Virus record (IMG/VR): IMGVR_UViG_3300046009_000141
Location: 1 to 27,322 of that record
Strand: one strand, 5' to 3'
DNA length: 27,322 nucleotides
Source: a virus
Positions within the stretch are counted from its first letter, which is position 1. The number at the start of each line of letters is the position of its first letter. Below, piece by piece: positions 3,825 to 17,618 of this stretch. The notes under the pieces were generated by a model that was not told the DNA's origin, did not search any database, and worked only from the letters and a program-made list of their open reading frames with translations. Made by a program: the position numbers and the translations under genes.

Positions 3825-5064
3825 ACTGGACTTCCCTGAAAAGTTGGGATTCCTGTTTGAGCCGCACCGATACAAGATTCTTTATGGTGGCCGTGGGTCT
3901 GCTAAGTCTTGGTCGGTGGCCCGAGCATTGATCGCCATTGCTGTTCAAAAGCAAACCCGCATTCTTTGCGCCCGTGAGTTGCAGAACAGTATCTCTGACT
4001 CTGTGATTGCTCTGTTGGGCGACCAGATCAAAGCAATGAATCTGGAGTCCTTCTTTGACGTACAGCGCACAGCCATCTACGGTAAGAACGGGTCTGAGTT
4101 CAGCTTTGCTGGCCTGAAGCACAACGTCACCTCAATCAAGTCCTTTGAGGGTGTGGACATCTGCTGGATAGAAGAAGGCCAAGCGGTATCTAAGGTGTCG
4201 TGGGAGACTTTGATCCCAACCATCCGAAAGCCTGACTCTGAGATATGGGTGACTTTTAACCCTGACTTGGACACAGACGAGACTTACAAGCGGTTTGTGG
4301 TCAACCCTCCTGCAAGCGCAAAGATCGCCAAGGTCAACTGGTCAGACAACCCGTGGTTTCCTCAAGTCCTGAAGGATGAACTGGAAGACCTGAAGGCCAA
4401 GAACGTGGATTCTTACCTGAACGTCTGGGAAGGGCATACCCGCCAGATGCTGGATGGCGCTGTGTACGCCAACGAACTGAGGAAGGCTCAAGAGGACAAC
4501 CGGGTGCGTGAGCTGATTATTGACAAGTCAATCCCTGTGCAGACCTTTTGGGACTTGGGATGGGCTGACATGACCTCAATCTGGTTCGTTCAGGTGATTG
4601 CCGGTGGTGAGGTCAGGGTGATCGACTTCTACCAGAACTGCCAGAAAACCATTGACCACTACGCTCAGGTCTTGCAGGACAAGGGCTACATCTACAAGGA
4701 TTGGTGGCTGCCGCACGATGCCGAGCATAAGAATATGACGGGCAAGTCTGTCAAGGATATTCTTGAGGGCATGGGTAAACCTATCCGAATCACGCCAAAG
4801 CTGTCTGTTGCTGACGGTATCAACGCAGCCAGAACGCTGATGAACCGAGCATTCTTTGACGAGACAAGATGCGCTGATGGCTTGCAGAACTTGCGCCATT
4901 ACCGCTATGACGTTGACCCGAACACTAAGATGTTCAGCAACAAGCCACTGCACGACCAGCACTCACACGCTGCCGATGCTTGGCGTTATGTGGCCGTGGG
5001 CCTTGACGAGAATGTCGGGACTTGGGGCAAATCTATCAACAAACCAGCAAAGTGGGTGGTCTAA
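3814..5064 (+). CDS. terL: Terminase large subunit (PBSX-type)
   Basis: A 416-residue DNA-packaging motor protein. The ATPase half has Walker A at 25-32 (GGRGSAKS), Walker B with its catalytic Glu at 114-121 (VDICWIEE) and the coupling motif TFNP at 147-150. The nuclease half has DLGWAD at 247-252, VIDFY around Asp271, and a late acidic site in DQHSHAADAW (Asp388). Length and motif order match PBSX/XtmB-type large terminases, which pump DNA into the prohead through the portal and cut the concatemer. It overlaps the small subunit start-to-end and is followed without a gap by a coiled-coil gene. All key residues I can check are present, so it looks functional. Confidence 0.95.
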   Translation: MNLELDFPEKLGFLFEPHRYKILYGGRGSAKSWSVARALIAIAVQKQTRILCARELQNSISDSVIALLGDQIKAMNLESFFDVQRTAIYGKNGSEFSFAGLKHNVTSIKSFEGVDICWIEEGQAVSKVSWETLIPTIRKPDSEIWVTFNPDLDTDETYKRFVVNPPASAKIAKVNWSDNPWFPQVLKDELEDLKAKNVDSYLNVWEGHTRQMLDGAVYANELRKAQEDNRVRELIIDKSIPVQTFWDLGWADMTSIWFVQVIAGGEVRVIDFYQNCQKTIDHYAQVLQDKGYIYKDWWLPHDAEHKNMTGKSVKDILEGMGKPIRITPKLSVADGINAARTLMNRAFFDETRCADGLQNLRHYRYDVDPNTKMFSNKPLHDQHSHAADAWRYVAVGLDENVGTWGKSINKPAKWVV

Positions 5065-5247
5065 ATGTTTATGATGCGACAAGGTGATATTTCTAATGCC
5101 AAGCGGGTTGACGAACTTGAAAAGCGGGTGGAAATGCTTGAAAATGTGGTAAAGCAGTTACAAGAAAAAAATGCTAGAATAGGCAGACCACCAAAGGAGA
5201 AGGCTAATGGACAAAAGACTATCGGGAGTCTATCTAATTCAGAATAA
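5065..5247 (+). CDS. Coiled-coil protein ending in GRPPK, likely truncated by homing endonuclease insertion
   Basis: A 60-residue protein starting directly after the terminase stop. Residues about 12-37 form a heptad coiled coil (RVDELEKRVEMLENVVKQLQ). GRPPKEK at 40-46 resembles a basic AT-hook-like stretch. The final residues (ANGQKTIGSLSNSE) are read through the start of the next gene in another frame and look non-native. A GRPAKVKDEPERT tail, encoded at 5792-5830 in the frame of the next gene, looks like the displaced original C-terminus. Short coiled-coil genes between terminase and portal are common in phages. Function is unknown. Confidence 0.6.
   Translation: MFMMRQGDISNAKRVDELEKRVEMLENVVKQLQEKNARIGRPPKEKANGQKTIGSLSNSE
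5182..5202 (+). repeat. Left copy of imperfect direct repeat flanking the GIY-YIG gene
   Basis: This stretch encodes GRPPKEK in the coiled-coil gene. It matches 5792-5812, which encodes GRPAKVK at the end of the GIY-YIG gene, at 15 of 21 bases and in the same codon register. The two copies bracket the endonuclease reading frame. This is what would be expected if the endonuclease inserted here with duplication or regeneration of the target. Confidence 0.5.
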
Positions 5248-5833
5248 GCTAGATGAGAAGTGTTATGTTGGGGTGTCTATAAACATTTACTCTCGATGGA
5301 GGCAGCACAAATATTGGGCAAAAAACAAAGAAGTTGCCTCAAGAATCACGCGCGCCATAAAAAAATACGGCGTTGAAAACTTTGAATTTTCAATTATTGA
5401 ACTTTGCGACAAGGATTTCTTTGAGGAAAAAGAAAGACATTGGATAAGTAAATATGATTCAGTTTTAAATGGCTATAACTTAACCTATGGTGGAAGCATA
5501 AAAAAAGTTATTTCAGAAGAAACAAAATTGAAGATGTCCAACAGCCGAATTGGAGTGCCAAAGTCTGATGGCCATAAGCAAAAAATTGCACAAGTCAACG
5601 GATCAAAAGAAAACCGAGAAAAATTTTCAAAGTTAAGTCTTGGGCGCAAGCTGTCTGACGAAACTAAAAAAAAGATGTCCGAAAGCAAAAAAGGCTTTAA
5701 ACACACTGAAGAAGCAAAAAGAAAGATGGGGGCTGCTTCCATTGCTCATTGGCAGCGCATAGCGTTACAATTAGCCGAACGCCCAAAGGTCGGGCGACCA
5801 GCAAAGGTCAAAGATGAGCCAGAACGAACTTAA
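5207..5833 (+). CDS. GIY-YIG homing endonuclease with NUMOD3 repeats
   Basis: A 208-residue protein. Residues 6-35 carry the GIY-YIG core (SGVYLIQN, then CYVGVS and the Arg-bearing SRWRQH). The catalytic Glu is probably in FEEKERHWI, and NGYNLTYGG follows. NUMOD3-type DNA-binding repeats come next: SEETKLKMSNSRIG, LSDETKKKMSESKKG and HTEEAKRKMG (about 103-185). Family members cut at a specific site and spread their own gene. The gene is strikingly AT-rich with many A-runs against its neighbours, a sign of recent transfer. A ribosome site (AAAGGAG) precedes the ATG. The last 14 residues (GRPAKVKDEPERT region) look captured from the interrupted coiled-coil gene. The stop overlaps the portal start by 20 bases. 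Confidence 0.9.
   Translation: MDKRLSGVYLIQNKLDEKCYVGVSINIYSRWRQHKYWAKNKEVASRITRAIKKYGVENFEFSIIELCDKDFFEEKERHWISKYDSVLNGYNLTYGGSIKKVISEETKLKMSNSRIGVPKSDGHKQKIAQVNGSKENREKFSKLSLGRKLSDETKKKMSESKKGFKHTEEAKRKMGAASIAHWQRIALQLAERPKVGRPAKVKDEPERT
5792..5812 (+). repeat. Right copy of imperfect direct repeat flanking the GIY-YIG gene
   Basis: Partner of 5182-5202, encoding GRPAKVK. Its base composition returns to that of the phage background after the AT-rich endonuclease, which supports an insertion boundary slightly upstream of it, around 5750-5790. Confidence 0.5.
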
Positions 5834-10583: not shown

Positions 10584-11528
10584 ATGGCAACCTATCAAAC
10601 CTATACCGCCATCGGTATGCGCGAAGACCTCTCTGACGTTATCTATAACATCAGCCCCACTGACACGCCTTTCATGTCTTCCATCGGCAAGACCAAAGCA
10701 ACTGCAACTTATCACGAGTGGCAGACTGACTCTTTGGCCGCTGCTGCTCTGGGTGGCGCTGTTGAAGGTGCTGATGCATCTAGCATCACTGCCTCGCCAA
10801 CAACCCGTATCGGCAACCGCACACAGATTTTCACTAAGTCTGTCGCTGTCGCTGGCACTCTGGAAGCTGTTGACAAAGCTGGTCGTAAGTCTGAAAAGGC
10901 TTACCAGTTGGCTAAAGTGTCGGCTGAATTGAAGCGCAACATTGAACTGACTCTGTTGTCCAACCAAGTGGCTGCCGCTGGTAACTCCAGCACTGCTCGC
11001 ACTTTGGGCGGTCTGCAAGCTTGGCTGAACACCAACTATGACGGTGGCACTGACGGTGTTGCTGGCTCTGCTGGTACAACTGCCCGTGTTGACGGTACTG
11101 ATCGCACCTTCACAGAAACCCTGCTGAAGACCGTGGTTGCCGAGGTGTACACCTCTGGCGGTTCGCCAAAAGTGTTGATGGTCAACCCTGCTCACAAGCA
11201 GTTGGTTTCGGCATTTGCTGGTATCGCTGCACAGCGTTACATGGCTACTTCCGACCAACCAACAACCATCATCGGCGCTGCTGATGTGTACATGAGCGAT
11301 TTCGGCACTATTTCGGTTGTGCCTAACCGCTTTATGAACAGCACCAACGCTGGCGATGAGACAGCTTTCTTGGTCGATCCCGACATGGCTGCTGTGGCTT
11401 ATCTGCGTCCTTTCGAAACCATTGAATTGGCTAAGACTGGCGACAGCGAGAAGACCCAACTGTTGGCTGAATTGACTCTGGAAGTCAAGAACCAAGCTGC
11501 TCACGGCATCATTGCAGATCTCTCGTAA
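10584..11528 (+). CDS. Major capsid protein (SU10/DUF5309 type)
   Basis: A 314-residue protein. The N-terminus is MATYQTYTAIGMREDLSDVI followed by ISPTDTPFMSSIGK, the signature start of the SU10-like (DUF5309) HK97-fold capsid family. Downstream landmarks are YHEWQTDSL, a variable loop, AYQLAKVSAELKRNIE (spine helix), GGLQAWL, and PKVLMVNPAHKQLVSAF in the P-domain, then VPNRFM and LRPFETIELAKTGDSEK near the end. It forms the icosahedral head with scaffold help. A GGAG ribosome site precedes the ATG. A strong terminator lies 26 bases after the stop, so it may be the most abundant product of the head operon. Codon use is GC-rich and even, typical of a strongly expressed gene. Confidence 0.93.
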   Translation: MATYQTYTAIGMREDLSDVIYNISPTDTPFMSSIGKTKATATYHEWQTDSLAAAALGGAVEGADASSITASPTTRIGNRTQIFTKSVAVAGTLEAVDKAGRKSEKAYQLAKVSAELKRNIELTLLSNQVAAAGNSSTARTLGGLQAWLNTNYDGGTDGVAGSAGTTARVDGTDRTFTETLLKTVVAEVYTSGGSPKVLMVNPAHKQLVSAFAGIAAQRYMATSDQPTTIIGAADVYMSDFGTISVVPNRFMNSTNAGDETAFLVDPDMAAVAYLRPFETIELAKTGDSEKTQLLAELTLEVKNQAAHGIIADLS

Positions 11529-11547
11529 CACGGGACAGGCTTAGACC

Positions 11548-11556
11548 TGATATAAT
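11548..11556 (+). promoter_or_regulatory. Perfect extended -10 promoter element (TGATATAAT)
   Basis: TGATATAAT matches the extended -10 consensus TGnTATAAT exactly; such promoters need little -35 contact, and none is visible here. Predicted start is near 11563. It overlaps the first two bases of the left arm of the capsid terminator. A transcript starting there would lack most of that arm and would leave the HNH ribosome site unpaired. Confidence 0.55.
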
Positions 11557-11586
11557 GCCCTCACATTAACTTGTGGGGGCATTTTT
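11555..11586 (+). terminator. Rho-independent terminator after capsid gene
   Basis: An 11-base-pair stem (ATGCCCTCACA with TGTGGGGGCAT, one G-U pair) closes a six-base loop (TTAACT). The last pair is directly followed by four more Ts before the HNH start codon, giving a five-T run. It should stop much of the head-operon transcription after the capsid gene. The right arm contains the only purine-rich ribosome site of the HNH gene. Confidence 0.85.
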
Positions 11587-12156
11587 ATGTGTACTGTTGA
11601 AAACTGCGACAAGACAATTTACGCTCATGGCTTTTGCCATATGCACTATCAGAGAAACAGAAAGCATGGGAACCCACTTGCAGGGTTTAAGAATCAAGCG
11701 CCACCAGAAGAAAGATTTTGGCGTTTTGTTGAGAAAACAGAAGGATGTTGGAGTTGGAAAGGAAAAAAGAAAAACGGTTACGGTGCTTTTTCTAAGGGTG
11801 CAAAAAAAGATGGAGATTTTTTGGCGCATCGTTTCTCATGGATGTTGCACAACAGCCAAGAAATCCCTGAAGGAATGTTCGTCATGCACAAGTGTGACAA
11901 TCCAGAATGTACCAATCCTGAGCATCTGATTCTTGGAACGCCCAAGGAAAATACTCAAGATATGATTGCAAAAGGTCGAAAAAGGACGGTTGCTCCTGTT
12001 GGCCTTGGAAACGGCAAGTCACTGCTGAACGAGGAAAAAGTAAGATTAATACGCCAAAGCAATCTCCCTCATGCCGTAATTGCAAGGGAGCTTGGTGTTT
12101 CGTCTAACTGCGTCAGGGGCGTAAGAATTGGAAGAACGTGGAGCCATGTCGTTTGA
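11587..12156 (+). CDS. HNH endonuclease (homing type)
   Basis: A 189-residue protein. Residues 2-22 hold a small Cys/His knuckle (CTVENC ... GFCHMHYQR). Residues about 37-60 are FWRFVEKTEGCWSWKG followed by GYGAF, the substrate-side region common in HNH_3-type phage nucleases. The core is HRFSW (about 81-85), then FVMHKCDNPECTNPEHL (about 97-113), which supplies the HNH His residues and a zinc-binding Cys pair, and then GTPKENTQDM. The C-terminus has a helix-turn-helix-like end (AVIARELGVSSNCVRGV). Such genes cut unoccupied alleles and spread. The ATG lies immediately after a terminator T-run; the GGGGG site is inside the terminator stem. It is more AT-rich than the capsid gene. Confidence 0.9.
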   Translation: MCTVENCDKTIYAHGFCHMHYQRNRKHGNPLAGFKNQAPPEERFWRFVEKTEGCWSWKGKKKNGYGAFSKGAKKDGDFLAHRFSWMLHNSQEIPEGMFVMHKCDNPECTNPEHLILGTPKENTQDMIAKGRKRTVAPVGLGNGKSLLNEEKVRLIRQSNLPHAVIARELGVSSNCVRGVRIGRTWSHVV

Positions 12157-12168
12157 TGGGGCTTTTTT
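12142..12168 (+). terminator. Weak terminator-like hairpin at HNH stop
   Basis: AGCCAT (12142-12147) can pair with AT-GG-GGCT (12156-12162) only with a small bulge, followed by six Ts. The GGGGC plus T-run resembles the right arm and tail of the capsid terminator (14 of 18 bases between 11573-11590 and 12155-12172). Efficiency is doubtful because the stem is short. Confidence 0.35.
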
Positions 12169-12182
12169 ATTTACCATGCCAA

Positions 12183-12191
12183 TGATAGAAT
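12183..12191 (+). promoter_or_regulatory. Extended -10-like element (TGATAGAAT) close to a start codon
   Basis: TGATAGAAT has the TGn and a five-of-six match to TATAAT. No clear -35 is present. The predicted start (near 12198) is adjacent to the ATG at 12199, so the mRNA would have essentially no leader. No ribosome site precedes that ATG. Confidence 0.35.
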
Positions 12192-12198
12192 TGCAATT

Positions 12199-12510
12199 AT
12201 GGAAAACCCTACATTTCGCAAATCTGTTGCTCATGCTGATGGTGAAGGCGGTTTGGTCATTCAAACTGCTCAAGATGTATCTGCCATTGTTGAGCGCAAC
12301 AAGCAAGAATTTAACAGCTATGACGAACGGGCCAAGTGGTCTGACGAGCTGTATGGCAACAAAGTAGCATCCATTCCATTGACTGCAATTGATGACCTAA
12401 ACAATCAGGGAATCATGCGTGGGTTTCACGTTATCGACAACACTCGGTTCGCAATGTGGTTAAACAACCCAGACAACCGAGCATGGCGCACTCGTCCGGG
12501 AGTAATTTAA
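12199..12510 (+). CDS. Podovirus head-tail region small protein, 103 aa
   Basis: A 103-residue protein with the pattern seen in small proteins just downstream of podovirus capsid genes: IQTAQDVSAIVERNKQEFN, then KVASIPLTAIDDLNNQGI and a C-terminal WLNNPDNRAWRTRPGVI. The final N-D-P/N-P-D-N-R-x-x-R-T motif is highly conserved in this group. No enzymatic residue is seen; a head-completion or structural role is inferred from position between capsid and adaptor genes. No Shine-Dalgarno sequence lies before the ATG; see the nearby promoter-like element. Its stop is directly followed by the next ATG. Confidence 0.8.
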   Translation: MENPTFRKSVAHADGEGGLVIQTAQDVSAIVERNKQEFNSYDERAKWSDELYGNKVASIPLTAIDDLNNQGIMRGFHVIDNTRFAMWLNNPDNRAWRTRPGVI

Positions 12511-16627: not shown

Positions 16628-16633
16628 ACTGTA

Positions 16634-16670
16634 TATAATGGATTCCATCGGATCACCCGTCATGGAATCC
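16634..16670 (+). promoter_or_regulatory. TATAAT element followed by a 9-bp inverted repeat
   Basis: TATAAT (16634-16639) has a TTGTTG-like stretch upstream at poor spacing. Immediately downstream GGATTCCAT (16640-16648) and ATGGAATCC (16662-16670) form a perfect nine-base inverted repeat with a 13-base loop. It spans the predicted start site, so it could be an operator or a leader hairpin. No T-run follows directly (AGAACTTTT), so a terminator is less likely. The ribosome site AGGAG of the next gene follows at 16680. Confidence 0.45.
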
Positions 16671-16691
16671 AGAACTTTTAGGAGTTAAATC

Positions 16692-17618
16692 ATGGCGGTC
16701 ACCACCTCCACACAAATTGATCCAACAATCCAGCCATTTCTGAGCTACGGATTGGGCGAGGCACAGCGTCTGTATCAGGCTGGTGGCCCTCAATACTACC
16801 CCGGTCAGACCTACGTTGCACCTTCTGCCACAACTCAATCTGGTCTTCAGGCGCTTGAGAATCGCGCAATGCAGGGCAGCCCACTGGTTGGTCAAGCACA
16901 GCAGCAAATTGGAAACACCATTGGCGGCAGTTACCTGTCAGGCAATCCGTTCTTTCAAGGCGCTTTTGCTCCTGCCGCGCAAGCTGCTACACAGCAGTTC
17001 CAGACAGCAATCGGCGACATTGGCTCTGCTGCGTCTAAGGCTGGTCGATACGGCTCTGGTGCAATGGGTACGCTGCAAGATCGTGCTTCTGGTCAACTGG
17101 CGCAGCAACTGAGCAACACTGCTGGTCAACTGGCTTATCAGAACTACTCTGACGAACGCGCACGACAGCAAGCCGCAACAATGGCTGCTCCTGCAATGGC
17201 TCAGGCTGACTATCAGGACATCCAGAATCTGCTGGCTGCTGGTCAGGCCCGTGAAGGCTACACAGGCCAGCAGTTGCAGTCCGACATTGCTCGGTTTAAC
17301 TTTGGTCAGCAACAACCACAGCAGAACTTGGCAACCTTCTTGTCTAGCGTGTACGGCAACCCAATGGCAACATTGAAAAGCCAAACTCAAAGCGGTTCTG
17401 CCGATACATCTACCCTGCAAAACGTGCTTGGCACTGCTGCAACTTTGGGTGGTGTATATAAGAATCTTGGCGGCTCTACTGGCATCAGTAATTTGTGGAA
17501 CTCTGGTTCAAATTGGCTTAGTGGCCTTGGCCCCACTACTAATGCTTTAAGTTCTGCGGCGTATGGCGTTGGAGATGTCGGATTTGAAAGTATGCTTTCT
17601 GACATTTACGGCTTCTAA
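16692..17618 (+). CDS. Gln/Ala/Ser-rich probable internal virion protein
   Basis: A 308-residue protein. The N-terminus is DPTIQPFLSYGLGEAQRLYQ followed by GGPQYYPGQTYV, a start seen in podovirus internal/tail proteins encoded between tail and fiber genes. The middle is helical and Gln/Ala-rich (QQFQTAIGDIGSAASKAGRY, then SGAMGTLQDRA and QLAQQLSNTAGQLAYQ), and the C-terminus is Gly/Ser-rich with small hydrophobic patches, which could help cross membranes. I infer an ejected internal protein because it is followed by two more large helical proteins without enzyme motifs. A ribosome site (AGGAG) and a possible promoter with an inverted repeat precede it. No catalytic site seen. Confidence 0.6.
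   Translation: MAVTTSTQIDPTIQPFLSYGLGEAQRLYQAGGPQYYPGQTYVAPSATTQSGLQALENRAMQGSPLVGQAQQQIGNTIGGSYLSGNPFFQGAFAPAAQAATQQFQTAIGDIGSAASKAGRYGSGAMGTLQDRASGQLAQQLSNTAGQLAYQNYSDERARQQAATMAAPAMAQADYQDIQNLLAAGQAREGYTGQQLQSDIARFNFGQQQPQQNLATFLSSVYGNPMATLKSQTQSGSADTSTLQNVLGTAATLGGVYKNLGGSTGISNLWNSGSNWLSGLGPTTNALSSAAYGVGDVGFESMLSDIYGF

Follow-up and report, generated by a model that had tools for sequence, protein, structure and literature searches.

Sequence evidence for a putative promoter inside a Shine-Dalgarno-sequestering hairpin ahead of a mobile HNH endonuclease gene of SU10-type phages

The window (the whole stretch of 27,322 nucleotides analyzed here) is an uncultured phage contig whose capsid, portal and adaptor proteins are of the SU10 type. 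The major capsid protein gene (SU10_MCP, PF17236; Pfam E 8e-99) occupies positions 10584-11528 on the + strand and would be the source of any read-through RNA. Its stop lies 58 nt from the start of a 189-aa HNH_3 homing-type endonuclease gene at 11587-12156 (+) (Pfam HNH_3, PF13392, E 6e-12; zf-His_Me_endon), which is thus found directly behind the major capsid gene and, judged by gene type, not on an early or middle polycistronic RNA. The HNH gene is under purifying selection (dN/dS 0.06-0.14 for the window gene against near relatives, 0.06-0.2 over all comparisons). By profile the protein is a clear member of the HNH_3 / His-Me finger homing endonucleases (PF13392, PF05551; PHROG 59, 3593), and in comparison with other enzymes of this kind it has nothing unusual. 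A second, different selfish nuclease of the same structural operon, a GIY-YIG / NUMOD3 homing-type endonuclease gene, is located at 5207-5833 between the terminase and portal genes and overlaps the preceding ORF. An Rfam search gave no match.

An extended -10 promoter element, TGATATAAT, is present at 11548-11556 (+), with TATAAT at 11551-11556 and no -35 match. The earlier note had described a perfect extended -10 at this place, and it is the sole TGnTATAAT in the whole window when both strands are searched; a plain promoter scan of the window did not list it because it has no -35. Adjoining and partly overlapping this element is a terminator-like hairpin (11554-11583) detected by hairpin scan and by folding. 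Its left arm (11554-11565, +) overlaps the -10 and holds the anti-SD AATGCCCTCACA, the loop is at 11566-11571, and its right arm (11572-11583, +) contains GGGGG at 11575-11579. While the terminator-like hairpin reported previously was indeed present, its stem measured 12 bp and not 11, with a right arm that ends at 11583 and not at 11582. GGGGG, which had been proposed as the Shine-Dalgarno (SD) site of the HNH gene, proved to be the best SD-like site of that gene, 7 nt ahead of the ATG at 11587, and is a modest SD that pairs with CCUCC with one G-U. A short U-tract, TTTTT (11582-11586, +), lies between stem and start codon and is terminator-like in the window's clade; in the window, the G+C-rich stem with this U-tract after it has the form of an intrinsic terminator. 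In 27 kb a stem of at least 11 bp is by itself no rarity (shuffles gave about 1.5 per strand); the conjunction of hairpin and promoter, above all its conservation in relatives, is far beyond chance.

RNA folding of positions 11530-11620 gave -29.5 kcal/mol (z -4.4), and the read-through RNA scored z -4.4 to -5.1, with 0 of 200 shuffles as good. RNAs whose 5' end is at or beyond 11561 had lost the hairpin (z = -0.3 to -1.1). When the long and short transcripts were folded, as had been suggested, the predicted cost of opening the SD was approximately 17-18 kcal/mol on the read-through RNA, which would be locked, versus 3.3 kcal/mol on RNA from 11563, which would be open. A scan of the 5' end showed that this cost stays at approximately 18 kcal/mol through 11554, falls steeply at 11557-11562 and reaches its minimum of 3.3 at 11563 (+), the RNA start expected 6 nt after the -10, with alike results at 37, 20 and 12 C. 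The cost was slightly lower again only for 5' ends from 11571, where the loop is also removed. The probability that the SD is unpaired in the short RNA of the window is only about 0.3, with weak alternative folds covering the SD in part; because of these folds an absolute probability above 0.5 is uninformative, and opening energy was used as the measure of release.

Relatives of the HNH gene were represented by 43 distinct upstream regions from 15 HNH protein clusters at 75% identity, many of these regions being related, such that the counts are not those of independent events. The HNH start in relatives was taken as the nearest ATG. By predicted opening energy all 43 upstream regions were locked on the long RNA (10.8-19.2 kcal/mol, mean 16.1) and open on the short RNA (1.8-6.6 kcal/mol, mean 3.3), and the predicted +1 falls 2-6 nt beyond the release point in 37 of the 43. 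In a 32-sequence alignment, each of the 12 stem pairs changes on both sides somewhere, and 93.8% of alignment cells pair versus 44-59% when the partner is slid, with all 500 shuffles lower. Arm sequences differ widely between clusters and pairing is kept. The stem runs through the -10 in many members, where the partner changes along with it (TAGGA/TCCTA, TAAGA/TCTTA, TACAAT/GTTGTA). Wobble pairs that can form on the mRNA strand only numbered 58, versus 4 for the opposite strand only, and this therefore indicates selection on RNA and not on a DNA palindrome or operator. The proposal that read-through RNA hides the SD is accordingly supported by the predicted folds and the covariation, as well as by the controls and the cassette exchange presented below. 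In the L008-L020 clade an in-frame ATG is found at the hairpin (CTC-ATG-TTAATTCATGGGGGCATTTTTATG), from which a longer HNH could alternatively be started.

With respect to the promoter, a -10 box (at least 5/6) ending 26-33 nt before the ATG occurs in 30 of the 43 sequences, versus 1.4 expected from local background. Where the -10 was weak, a -35 of at least 5/6 was found at 17-18 bp in 13/13 sequences; where it was strong, such a -35 was found in 0/30. The position of eight of the 13 weak -10 boxes (L025, L045, L047, L048, L054, L060, L061, L064) was fixed beforehand by the abutting stem, and the remaining five (L066, L067, L069, L070, L074) were located from the -35 by choosing the -10 at the usual spacing, and are for this reason weaker evidence. 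The -10 of these same five is within the left arm or the loop; their start would again fall between anti-SD and SD. The promoter type is that of sigma-70 (TGATATAAT in the window, TTGACA-17-TAGGAT in relatives) and not that of a T4 middle or late promoter. Judged by comparison between relatives, the promoter is real, and the earlier suggestion of an internal promoter whose RNA lacks the left arm gains support from the -10/-35 complementation and from a predicted start just past the release point.

The hairpin had been described as the capsid gene's own terminator, and this was not borne out. HNH-less relatives carry a different terminator behind the capsid gene in 57/61 cases, have a -10 box in only 2/61 and have no SD-ATG, and the hairpin varies with HNH, about half of its instances lacking a U-tract. 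As would be expected for a homing endonuclease, relatives with a 96% identical capsid show presence/absence polymorphism of the HNH gene at one site, and the HNH cassette is exchanged between near-identical phages. In phages whose capsids share at least 85% identity, the 45 nt upstream varied in similarity with HNH (r 0.79) and not with the capsid (r 0.16). Capsid proteins are 98% identical in both L045/L055 and L025/L058, whose HNH proteins are 69% and 68% identical, respectively, and whose promoter-hairpins are different; in both pairs DNA identity falls at the capsid stop and recovers in the last third of HNH. Between the window and L006 the 60 nt upstream are 100% identical, and most flanking blocks are at approximately 80-95%. 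The hairpin thus tracks HNH and not the capsid, and the exchanged cassettes indicate that promoter, lock and nuclease move together. By these comparisons of sequence, the hairpin belongs to the endonuclease cassette and not to the capsid gene.

Following the HNH stop, the window carries at 12158-12168 (+) the sequence GGGGCTTTTTT, the right half of the ancestral post-capsid terminator shared with the HNH-less L082 and L083. From this point into the next gene the window is collinear with L082, which indicates that the cassette landed in the terminator. In the HNH-less L148 the post-capsid DNA (3946-4010) opens with the sequence typical of the clade that carries HNH (CTCACATAGATGTGATAC), goes on as the ordinary terminator, and is probably the scar of a lost HNH cassette. 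In L011-L021 the final HNH codons, together with the stop, make up a hairpin that has a T-run (CACATTAAATAATGTGTGTTTTTT), and the cassette may therefore carry a 3' terminator of its own; in the window a terminator made of the last HNH codons folds weakly (z -0.7). The next gene (ATG at 12199; window 12186-12201) has no SD, and TGATAGAAT ends 7 nt before its ATG. TAGAAT or TAAAAT is found 6 or 7 nt before this ATG in 61/61 distinct regions of HNH-less relatives, and the start looks like a conserved leaderless mRNA start.

Fixed criteria were applied to determine how widely the arrangement occurs: an opening cost of at least 10 kcal/mol, a promoter score of at least 5 and a release of at least 7 kcal/mol. 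It was recovered in 29/39 close HNH genes with an SD and in 6/25 further HNH genes (mostly 31-48% identical; three of the six are closer), distant HNH genes often being without it under these strict criteria (19/25). On the same contigs it was absent from all 314 other ORFs that have an SD and encode at least 100 aa; this control set leaves out the pattern-scan loci, and a set including them (18/700) is biased towards the arrangement. In MW202691 (L494), the same arrangement is found for an HNH of 38% identity that follows a P22-type coat gene, with CCCGTATAATGTCGGG-loop-CCCGCATTATACGGAG preceding the ATG and the -10 forming part of the stem. A scan of viral contigs for TATAATCCTCC-N-GGAGG-N-ATG returned at least 120 stretches, compared with 21 when the -10 was shifted 12 nt upstream and 114 for a fourfold degenerate non-complementary control. 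This suggests enrichment, and as repeated families dominate the matches we do not lean on it. A scan of genome contigs gave only two distant relatives. LUZ24 gp40 and CR44b 7.7 were considered as further cases and rejected, as they overlap or abut the preceding gene, and inspection by eye of LNA5 revealed no such hairpin before its HNH.

Several other loci were observed in the course of these searches. TATAAT-CCTCC...GGAGG-ATG with a long stem is also found ahead of further enzymes that cut or recombine DNA, in phages unrelated to these, namely the tyrosine integrases of L279 and L208, an endonuclease VII type enzyme in L171 and an HNH_3 enzyme in L223, and L279 also has a U-tract. At many loci in the range L161-L277, a phage gene of approximately 77-86 aa repeatedly has TATAATCCTCC-CCAATA-GGAGG before its ATG, with upstream DNA that is otherwise different. 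In the window itself (16630-16692), another TATAAT, at 16634-16639, leads directly into a hairpin, GGATTCCAT...ATGGAATCC, ahead of the gene at 16692, the SD of which (AGGAG) is outside the stem.

On this evidence we consider it very probable that the HNH gene is controlled by a lock combined with an internal start. The mobile HNH cassette would bring its own control unit, a sigma-70-type promoter that starts inside an SD-sequestering hairpin. Capsid read-through RNA would have both arms, with the SD locked, and in the window's clade part of it probably ends at the U-tract. The internal promoter would give RNA that starts past the anti-SD arm and, being unable to form the hairpin, escapes termination there, leaving the SD free and the endonuclease made. 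The nuclease would in this way be uncoupled from the heavily transcribed capsid operon and be made before, or at low level beside, late expression. The architecture, the covariation, the promoter complementation and the co-travel of the unit with the nuclease can be read from the sequences, and from them we infer the RNA start, the translational silencing, the efficiency of termination and the timing.

Given such a mechanism, timing that is reversed in comparison with T4, with the nuclease's own promoter active early or at low level and the gene silent during capsid expression, is the somewhat favored outcome, because the read-through source is the capsid gene, the promoter is host-type, and neither an RNA polymerase nor a sigma factor was annotated in a complete HNH-less relative or found among its scanned regulatory-region proteins. 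The same arrangement with T4-like timing, in which the internal promoter is late (for example via a transcription factor of the phage) and early read-through is what the lock silences, would agree with all experimentally known cases, which are late genes on early or middle polycistronic RNA (PMC2988022). We regard this as unlikely in the present phages, since the read-through source is late by type, the promoters (TTGACA-17-TAGGAT, TGnTATAAT) look sigma-70-like, and no polymerase or sigma factor was seen among the annotations and scanned proteins of that relative.

A simpler explanation is that the hairpin is a plain intrinsic terminator of the capsid operon, with an SD inside it by accident and a -10 that is a chance A+T-rich match. 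The hairpin of the window does score as a terminator, with its U-tract, and HNH-less relatives also have a post-capsid terminator in most cases. However, a U-tract follows the stem in 21/43 regions, window included, and the 22 hairpins without one keep both SD pairing and -10. The -10/-35 complementation, the absence of -10 and SD-ATG from the HNH-less terminators and the variation of the hairpin with HNH also argue against a plain terminator, which we consider highly improbable. As only 21/43 regions have the U-tract, the SD lock and the internal start are the conserved parts and termination is optional. We judge termination at the hairpin in the window slightly likelier than its absence, and in the window's clade the hairpin is probably both terminator and SD lock and would replace the terminator broken by the insertion.

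We attach similarly little weight to the possibility that the palindrome is a DNA operator at which the HNH protein, through its C-terminal helix-turn-helix, autorepresses over the -10, the RNA hairpin being a by-product, even though the palindrome overlaps the -10 and autorepression of I-TevI over its own promoter is known (PMC2988022). The excess of wobble pairs favors the mRNA strand, and the arms diverge between clusters with their pairing retained; autorepression may nevertheless act in addition to the lock. For RNase III a stem of 12 bp is short, which counts against processing of the capsid mRNA by RNase III or E, in place of a separate promoter, as the event that frees the SD. Some T4 endonuclease RNAs are known to be processed by RNase E (PMC2988022), but the conserved -10, joined by a -35 at 17-18 bp where it is weak, also argues against processing, which we consider highly improbable.

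Hairpin-controlled homing endonuclease genes have been described previously, namely I-TevI, I-TevII, I-TevIII, SegB and MobE of phage Aeh1 (PMC2988022). For T4 I-TevI and its kin there is experimental support for an early or middle RNA that is locked and a late RNA that is open, which confirms the precedent cited in the earlier note (PMC2988022). As in the T4 I-TevI group, a homing endonuclease gene is concerned here, its SD is predicted to lie in a stable stem on read-through RNA, and by sequence its own promoter would give RNA that starts 3' of the 5' arm. Whereas that group has middle or late promoters within early or middle units, the sigma-70-type promoters found here are behind a late capsid gene, the nuclease family is HNH_3, the phages have an SU10-type capsid (a P22 coat in one), and the hairpin of the window's clade serves as a terminator-like element as well. 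In the leader of T4 gene e (lysozyme), as proposed here, the long early RNA is locked and RNA from late promoters in the 5' arm is translated; unlike the present case, gene e is not a mobile element, and its T4 late promoter, TATAAATA, is not of sigma-70 type (PMC3014915). T4 mobE and segF likewise have a terminator associated with a free-standing endonuclease gene, but there it is inside the coding region, whereas here the terminator-like stem itself would be the SD lock (PMC2988022). In a literature search that covered few subscription journals, the principle was not found for a free-standing HNH gene outside T4-like phages, nor was any description found in which the promoters are of sigma-70 type or the lock is also the terminator. 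The principle is already known, and what appears to be new here is the host-type promoters, the capsid-gene site, the HNH_3 family and the lock as a terminator-like element.

Selfish endonucleases must cut without harm to their carrier. The T4 solution is known from few genes, all of a single phage group, and here covariation and promoter complementation speak for the same logic in 15 clusters of an HNH family of mostly uncultured phages. As a tentative generalization, to which we give slightly less than an even chance, a promoter inside an SD lock would be a widespread modular control unit for the enzymes with which phages other than the T4 group cut and recombine DNA. It would use host sigma-70 and hence have the opposite timing (early on, off during capsid expression), spread with the nuclease, re-evolve repeatedly with the -10 abutting the stem or inside arm or loop, and be fused with termination in one clade. 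The finding would offer a rule, open to test, for the way in which free-standing nucleases avoid being strongly expressed along with the operons they enter, together with a sequence signature by which further cases may be found, and would describe a compact part, promoter and lock in approximately 40 bp, by which a gene may be made deaf to upstream transcription.
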